From: Chloroflexota bacterium | GTDB taxonomy: Bacteria > Chloroflexota > Anaerolineae > B4-G1 > DUEL01 | NCBI GenBank assembly: GCA_014874475.1 | Contig: JADBJJ010000026.1 | Span: 62,001-126,000, forward strand | Direction of reading: 5' to 3' | DNA: 64,000 nt | Shown: positions 12,971 to 14,797 of the stretch, piece after piece | Position numbering within the stretch: the first letter of the stretch is position 1 | Layout: each line of letters starts with the position of its first letter | Made by a program: the position numbers and the translations under genes | The notes under the pieces: generated by a model | The model's input: the letters and a program-made list of their open reading frames with translations, nothing else | Databases searched by the model: none | Told to the model about the DNA's origin: nothing

Positions 12971-13717
12971 TTACTCCGTCAAGTTCGCCGCCCGCCGGTC
13001 GTACAGCCCGGCCCGTCCGTTGCGGCGGATGCGGATGACCTCCCAGAACATATTCCAGGAATCCCGCAGGGGACTGACCCGGCTTCCTTCGCCGTAGTAC
13101 CAGTCAATGGGCACCTCTACAATGCGGTAGCCGCGCCGCCGGGCAATGTAGAGCACCTCCACGTCAAACGCCCAGCCATTCAGCATCTGTACCGAGAACA
13201 GGTCGCGCGCCACCTCCCGACGAAAGCATTTGAAGCCGCACTGGGTGTCCTGGATGCCCGGCACCGCCAGAACGCGCACAACGGTGTTGAAAACACGCCC
13301 CATCAGGTGACGGTACCAGGGTTCGTTGAACCGGCGCGCGCCCGGCGCTTCGCGGGAGGCAATGGCAACATCGTAATCGGAGAGGGCCGGGGGGAGGAAC
13401 CGGGAGACCTGCTCAATGGGCATCGCCAGGTCGGCGTCACAAATGAACAGATATTCTCCCCGCCCTTCCAGCATCCCCTTCCGTACCGCCGCCCCCTTTC
13501 CCCGGATGGGCTGGTAGAGCAGAGAGACTATCGGGTATTGGGCCGCGACCGTCCGGACGACCTCCCCCGTCCGGTCGGTGCTGGCGTTATCTACCACCAG
13601 CACTTCCACCGGATAGGCCTGCGCCTCGGCGAAAGCGACGACCTGGGGGAGGGTCGTCGGCAGGCGAAGCTCCTCATTATAGGCCGGGATGATGATAGTC
13701 AGCAGTGGTTCGGTCAT
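12971..13717 (-). CDS. Glycosyltransferase family 2 (dolichyl-phosphate mannosyltransferase/DPM1-like)
   Basis: IIIPAYNEELRLPTTL, VDNASTDRT, CDADLAMP. Confidence 0.92.
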   Translation of the reverse strand: MTEPLLTIIIPAYNEELRLPTTLPQVVAFAEAQAYPVEVLVVDNASTDRTGEVVRTVAAQYPIVSLLYQPIRGKGAAVRKGMLEGRGEYLFICDADLAMPIEQVSRFLPPALSDYDVAIASREAPGARRFNEPWYRHLMGRVFNTVVRVLAVPGIQDTQCGFKCFRREVARDLFSVQMLNGWAFDVEVLYIARRRGYRIVEVPIDWYYGEGSRVSPLRDSWNMFWEVIRIRRNGRAGLYDRRAANLTE

Positions 13718-14148
13718 TACGGCTCCCCGAGTCCAGCGACGGCGGCCCGGATGGACGCTCGGTCGGGCAGGCCGGCCTGGGCGTAGACCACCTGCCCCTT
13801 CCCGTCAAAGACGATGAAAGTGGGGACGGCGACCACGCCGTACTCTCGGGCCAGCGCCAGCCCGCTCTGGCTCATCACGTTGATCCGCAGCACCTTTGCG
13901 GTTCCACTCAGTTCCTTCTCTAACCTGTCCACGACAGGTTTGGCCAGCAGGCAGGCGCTTCAGGTGTTGGAGAAGAATTCCACCACGACGGGCTGCCCGC
14001 TGCGAATCTCCTGCTGGAAAGCCTCCACGGAGAGGTCGTCGGCGGGGGTGCGCAGGAAGAGCCAAGCGCCCGCCAGCAGACCAAGCACCAGCAGAAGAGC
14101 CCAGTTCTGCCGGAGCAGCTCAGAGAGCATATGTCCAATTGCGTTCAT
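13717..14148 (-). CDS. Candidate selenoprotein: membrane-anchored thioredoxin-like protein with in-frame UGA (UxxC), read through at 13960-13962
   Basis: MNAIGHMLSELLRQNWALLLVLGLLAGAWLFL(TM)...QPVVVEFFSNT-U-SACLLAKPVVDRLEKEL...VVAVPTFIVFDGKGQVVYAQAG. RBS AGAAGGAG upstream; start overlaps the upstream gene's stop (ATGA). Same reading frame continues on both sides of TGA with Trx-fold features, including cis-Pro VPTF. Confidence 0.75.
13922..13940 (-). promoter_or_regulatory. Candidate bacterial SECIS hairpin
   Basis: mRNA-sense AACCUGUC-GUG-GACAGGUU: perfect 8-bp stem, loop beginning G-U, 27 nt between UGA and loop. Confidence 0.6.
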
Positions 14149-14732
14149 TTCACTCCTTCTATCAGCCGAAAAATGGCCAGGATGCGGGATTCCTCCCGCT
14201 GGAGGCGAAATCCTGCCTGCTGAACGCTCCGGGTCGTCTCCCGGTTCAGGCGACAGACCCCGTTCCAGGCAAACCACAGAGGGTGGAGACGGTCCGTCAG
14301 CCAGGCACCTGCGCCCCGGCCCCGGGTGTGCTCCAGGAGGAGCAGACGGCCCCCGGGCCGGAGGACCCGGTACACCTCCCCCAGCGCCCGCTCCGGCTCA
14401 GCGACGGAGCAGAAGACCAGGGAGCCCGTCACAGTGTCAAAGGCGCCGTCCTGGAAGGGAAGGCGGTGGAGATCGGCCTGGACGGCCTGGATGCGGGCGC
14501 GGGCGGGGCGGTGTCGGGCCCGCCGAAGCATCGGCCTGCTGAAGTCCAGCGCCACCACCGTCGCCCCGGGCGGGTAGAGGGGGAGATTGACACCGGTGCC
14601 GATGCCCACCTCCAGCACCCGCCCCTCCGCCGTTGGGAACGCTCGCCGTCGCATCCGCTGCAGGACCGCCACCTCCAGCGGTAGTATCCCCAGATCGTAT
14701 CCCGAAACCAGCGCGTCAAAAACGAAGCCCAT
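14145..14732 (-). CDS. Class I SAM-dependent methyltransferase (UbiE-like)
   Basis: VLEVGIGTGVNLPLYP motif I, VVALDFSRPML. Likely start MGFVFDALV at 14732; ORF extends to 14759 into repeat sequence. Confidence 0.88.
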   Translation of the reverse strand: MGFVFDALVSGYDLGILPLEVAVLQRMRRRAFPTAEGRVLEVGIGTGVNLPLYPPGATVVALDFSRPMLRRARHRPARARIQAVQADLHRLPFQDGAFDTVTGSLVFCSVAEPERALGEVYRVLRPGGRLLLLEHTRGRGAGAWLTDRLHPLWFAWNGVCRLNRETTRSVQQAGFRLQREESRILAIFRLIEGVK

Positions 14733-14733
14733 T

Positions 14734-14797
14734 TTAACCGCTGAAAGCGCAGAGAACACAGAGAAAAATTGATCAAAACCTTTGCGTCCTCCGCGGT
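14734..14797. repeat. CGCAGAG-type imperfect palindromic repeat between methyltransferase and uvrA
   Basis: AACCGCTGAAAGCGCAGAGAACACAGAG ... CTTTGCGTCCTCCGCGGT. Confidence 0.6.

Follow-up and report, generated by a model that had tools for sequence, protein, structure and literature searches.

A bacterial thioredoxin with a UxxC motif (Pfam family PF00085) is an experimentally verified selenoprotein (PMC13188914, Table 1), and the GOS marine survey recovered several thioredoxin-like UxxC groups, one of which, Trx-like 3, is annotated weakly to cd02950 (PMC2398784). We analyzed a stretch of 64,000 nucleotides of a Chloroflexota genome (hereafter the window), in which a minus-strand gene appears to encode a protein of this kind. 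What it has in common with the verified UxxC thioredoxin (PMC13188914) is the thioredoxin fold, selenocysteine (Sec) as the first residue of UxxC and the in-frame UGA; as far as the descriptions allow the comparison, the window protein is set apart by an N-terminal membrane helix and by U-S-A-C as its active-site sequence. The likeness to the GOS groups (PMC2398784), again by description, is that both are UxxC thioredoxin-like selenoproteins, those of the survey coming from ocean samples. The GOS Trx-like selenoproteins, for example Trx-like 3, may include SAR202 members of the present family. Classical cytoplasmic TrxA (PDB 3tco and 4knd) has the same fold, the same position of the CxxC motif and the cis-proline (Foldseek E of about 2e-9 to 3e-9, 27-32% identity), but it is not membrane-bound, it has Cys in place of Sec and its motif is CGPC. 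Since UxxC thioredoxin selenoproteins are already known, the locus would represent a widespread, unmodelled membrane-anchored subfamily and not a new principle. Our literature search on seleno-thioredoxins in Chloroflexota and SAR202, which covered mostly journals outside subscription, returned formate dehydrogenases and no report of this family.

The features of the locus are collected in Table 1. The open reading frame at 13960-14277 on the minus strand closes at the TGA at 13960-13962, and the frame then stays open as far as the TAA at 13717-13719. The earlier note had described a thioredoxin frame broken by this TGA and continuing beyond it, and the sequence bears this out. Translation with the TGA as Sec gives a product of 143 residues, MNAIGHML...VVVEFFSNT-U-SAC-LLAKPVVDRLEKEL...AVPTFIVFDG...GLGEP, which has UxxC at the CxxC site and retains VPTF, as the note had proposed. 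Its further claim of an intact ribosome-binding site, start and overlaps with both neighbors is equally correct: the ATG at 14146-14148, for which the TGA is codon 63, follows the AAGGAG element and overlaps the stop of the methyltransferase gene as ATGA, and TAATG joins the gene to the glycosyltransferase gene. The GTG in the loop of the predicted hairpin serves as a false start for an open reading frame of 71 amino acids (13717-13932), and mechanical ORF callers therefore split the gene in two.

Table 1. Features of the seleno-thioredoxin locus, in coordinates of the window.
Feature	Position	Strand	Basis
Selenoprotein gene (predicted), membrane-anchored thioredoxin, 143 residues with predicted Sec63	13717..14148	-	sequence, PF00085, relatives, AlphaFold
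In-frame TGA, predicted Sec63, first residue of U-S-A-C	13960..13962	-	sequence; TGA in 68 distinct sequences, TGC/TGT in 37
TGC, Cys66, resolving cysteine of UxxC	13951..13953	-	invariant in alignment A1
cis-Pro109 codon, VPTF motif	13822..13824	-	P-T invariant in alignment A1
Predicted transmembrane helix, residues 16-32	14053..14103	-	AlphaFold helix H16-32; hydrophobic sequence ALLLVLGLLAGAWLFL
Shine-Dalgarno-like AAGGAG, 4 nt 5' of ATG	14153..14158	-	sequence
Predicted bacterial SECIS hairpin AACCUGUC-GUG-GACAGGUU, starting 20 nt past UGA	13922..13940	-	covariation, folding, covariance model
Core pairs of the hairpin	13935-13938 with 13924-13927	-	same hairpin at 13922..13940
GUG apical loop of the hairpin, false GTG start of 71-aa ORF	13930..13932	-	sequence and hairpin
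Upstream gene, class I methyltransferase (Methyltransf_11), ATGA overlap	14145..14759	-	kept as neighbor only in genus
Downstream gene, family 2 glycosyltransferase, TAATG overlap	12971..13717	-	kept as neighbor only in genus

The PF00085 match spans the TGA and covers residues 39-136 (E = 1.4e-13, 51.2 bits against a curated cut-off of 23.5). The AlphaFold model (mean pLDDT 91.8) consists of one long N-terminal helix (residues 16-32) and a thioredoxin domain, and the predicted helix supports the membrane anchor that the earlier note had assigned. The helix H64-79 comes right after U63. Thus, the predicted model places UxxC at the start of a helix, as in the thioredoxin fold, and the conserved P109-T110 provides the proline at the cis-Pro position. 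Nearly all of the PDB matches listed for the model are thioredoxins or thioredoxin fusions, and the best ones are thioredoxins (Foldseek). The positions invariant in alignment A1 are C/U63, C66, P71, P109 and T110. No NCBIfam model reached its cut-off with the window protein; TIGR01068, the TrxA equivalog, scored 57.9 bits, under its cut-off of 96.8. The SAR202 homologues have a positively charged loop between two hydrophobic helices (RRWRDR in L052, for example), which by the positive-inside rule would leave the domain outside. The thioredoxin domain probably faces outward, to judge from these sequences.

The host genome (3,015,132 bases, 97.7% complete), of which the window is G000:C27:62001-126000, contains the full set of Sec genes for which the earlier note had recommended a search. 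A tRNA-Sec with anticodon UCA scored 72.1 bits, SelA 581 bits and SelD 328 bits, and SelB was matched in two stretches that together reached 343.9 bits against a cut-off of 242. The SelD gene (L040, G000:C1:121458-122381) is another selenoprotein candidate: its frame contains a TGA close to the N-terminus, and a 7-bp hairpin with the 3-nt loop GUC comes after it.

The gene has its nearest named relatives in Thermoflexales, Thermoflexus and Anaerolineae metagenome-assembled genomes (MAGs), and on this gene, as distinct from a species tree, the host genome would belong to the Thermoflexales group. MAGs make up most of the genomes compared. All seven genomes of the genus carry the gene, six of them with TGA at the codon in question and one (G006) without a stop; G006, a close relative (83% identical), has TGC there. 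At the level of the family, 12 of the 13 genomes have the gene, with TGA in 11 copies and TGC in the remaining one, which answers the question raised in the earlier note of whether homologues have Cys or TGA at this position. Matches at E of 1e-20 or less were present in 126 of 396 sampled genomes of the class (best match with TGA in 98, Cys form without a stop in 28), and the gene was found in 47 of 400 genomes of the phylum sample. The codon was read in 105 members, 68 distinct sequences with TGA and 37 with TGC or TGT, Cys being the sole replacement. Both forms are present among the SAR202/Dehalococcoidia genomes. Three genomes (G427, G466 and G667) contain a tandem pair of TGA copies separated by a few hundred bases, and two others (G135 and G318) each possess a TGA copy along with a stop-free copy. 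On the tree of the 105 members the Sec/Cys label requires 12 changes, five of which the supported branches make unavoidable; as the tree has no root, it does not distinguish gain of Sec from loss. With only five independent Sec/Cys contrasts on the supported branches, a sign test could not reach significance, and the independent-pairs test of hairpin loss with Sec/Cys change likewise had too few supported pairs.

The TGA form follows the Sec pathway across genomes. SelB was above its cut-off in 84 of 98 genomes with the TGA gene, compared to 12 of 28 with the Cys gene (Fisher p about 1e-5, uncorrected for relatedness). Seven of the 14 TGA genomes without SelB have a tRNA-Sec, and the other seven are only 64-88% complete. 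Among the genomes with the Cys form, tRNA-Sec was found in all 12 that have SelB and in none of the 16 that do not. In a related family of the same order (f2), SelB matches are listed for none of the genomes, and the 10 gene copies are all of the Cys form.

In bacteria, the SECIS element is a hairpin that lies shortly 3' of the UGA and whose small apical loop contains G (PMC1088965). With the U of UGA numbered 1, positions 23-30 of the window gene pair with 34-41 and enclose a loop at 31-33 (GUG), with an energy of -10.3 kcal/mol; the hairpin thus stands just 3' of the UGA and has a small, G-containing apical loop, as in that description. Across the 68 TGA genes 91.7% of cells were paired, and pairing decreased to 22-44% when the partner strand was slid. 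Cells with double-sided compensatory changes numbered 70 in these genes, compared to 29.5 in shuffles, and none of 500 shuffles reached 70. RNAalifold, given no structure, predicted the central four pairs. In pair 27-37, a Pro codon contributes its silent third base and a Gly or Arg codon its first base (CCC-GGG, CCT-AGG); protein constraint does not explain this coupling, which therefore points to covariation at the level of the RNA. All four core pairs were found in 64 of 68 TGA genes and in 2 of 37 Cys genes (Fisher p about 6e-21, uncorrected for relatedness). A conserved hairpin past the TGA, whose absence alongside intact CxxC in all close relatives would have counted against the reading of the earlier note, is therefore present: it covaries in the TGA genes and is mostly degraded in the Cys genes. 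None of the outcomes that the note had named as refuting was observed. Of the 68 TGA genes, 13 do not form the pair at columns 29-35 and 20 do not form that at 24-40, so that the stem is secure in its middle part only. When trained on TGA genes, a covariance model gave 54 and 35 bits on two held-out TGA genes, and in the window its only confident site was 13922..13940, the next matches having E of 0.16 or more. The Rfam model SECIS_1 (RF00031) had no match here and likewise none in 14 control genomes, and its silence is for that reason uninformative.

Two Cys genes retain the core pairs. A recognizable hairpin is seen in the Cys genes L011/L049 (G006) and L147 (G176), at 50 and 39 bits, in genomes that have SelB and tRNA-Sec. 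L011 and L147 belong to lineages close to TGA genes, and their partial hairpin is as would be expected after a recent change from Sec to Cys.

On the strength of these comparisons, the gene almost certainly encodes a selenoprotein in which the UGA at codon 63 is read as Sec. At the level of sequence this is strongly supported by the Sec machinery, the conserved UGA, the covariation of the hairpin, the exchange of Sec and Cys and the predicted thioredoxin fold, whereas we infer Sec insertion itself, the topology, the direction of the reaction, the reductant and the substrate. One could regard the TGA as an accident (a nonsense mutation, a sequencing error or the mark of a decaying gene) at a codon that was ancestrally TGC or TGG, and the TGC in the close relative G006 would fit such an account. 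We give it next to no credence, since the same TGA recurs across many families, in genomes assembled independently of one another, and in SAR202/Dehalococcoidia, always as TGA at this codon and accompanied by a covarying hairpin, and since a conserved frame follows it. Among the genus members, third codon positions are the most variable both before and after the TGA. The earlier note had argued against a decayed gene, and the 68 distinct sequences with the same TGA and the conserved downstream frame, a pattern well outside what chance would give, sustain that view.

A selenium-free reading of the UGA, in which a near-cognate or reassigned tRNA would insert an ordinary amino acid such as Trp or Cys, is very unlikely. 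Some bacteria decode UGA as a sense codon, and as the alternative in the relatives is Cys, UGA read as Cys would also preserve function. Yet the other genes examined are ordinary table-11 reading frames, SelD has its expected Sec TGA, and tRNA-Sec (UCA) is present with SelA, SelB and SelD; moreover, the intact hairpin is almost wholly limited to TGA genes, and the TGA forms track SelB. We hold it to be just as improbable that the UGA serves chiefly as a regulatory stop, with a membrane peptide of 62 amino acids as the usual product and Sec insertion as a minor, selenium-dependent switch. Termination competes with Sec insertion in any selenoprotein gene, and the upstream part does contain the whole transmembrane helix, but conservation is about equal in the thioredoxin half past the UGA and in the half before it, and the Cys versions lack the stop altogether, which argues that selection maintains the full-length protein.

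For the favored reading, a Sec-containing thioredoxin, the following mechanism can be proposed. The UGA at codon 63 would be decoded by SelB and tRNA-Sec(UCA), steered by the hairpin inside the coding sequence, and the single N-terminal helix would tether the product in the membrane. Sec63 would stand in for the attacking cysteine of the thioredoxin CxxC site, such that the protein would act as a thiol-disulfide oxidoreductase: Sec63 would attack the disulfide of the substrate and Cys66 would resolve the mixed selenosulfide. The Sec63/Cys66 pair would then be re-reduced, possibly by a CcdA/DsbD-like transmembrane protein or by thioredoxin with thioredoxin reductase. The host genome has one DsbD_TM/CcdA-like protein, encoded on the same contig as the Sec gene, and we consider it a candidate reductant. 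At 10 TGA loci of other families (L100, L102, L104 and L106 among them) the gene immediately upstream, on the same strand, encodes a classical CGPC thioredoxin and ends about 180 nt before the Sec codon, and thioredoxin reductase-like or CsoR-like genes are near the loci of other relatives. The methyltransferase and glycosyltransferase genes were considered as functional partners and rejected, their adjacency being conserved within the genus only; with these as the neighbors in the genus, the context suggests no substrate.

The splitting of the gene by ORF calling and the lack of an NCBIfam model at cut-off imply that the annotation of a common redox protein of Chloroflexota is probably wrong in many genomes, and the hairpin alignment offers a SECIS model for Chloroflexota that can be used to find relatives of the gene. 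It is conceivable, at slightly less than even chances in our judgment, that this membrane-tethered seleno-thioredoxin constitutes a phylum-wide, extracytoplasmic, selenium-dependent redox system in Chloroflexota, descended from a Sec-containing ancestor with many conversions to Cys, including in lineages that have Sec machinery. Since a single tree of the family contains no fewer than 5 and as many as 12 Sec/Cys exchanges, some of them in the presence of the SelB pathway, the cost and benefit of Sec become comparable in natural pairs; if the proposal is true, the family would amount to a replicated experiment of nature on why some lineages retain Sec and others lose it.
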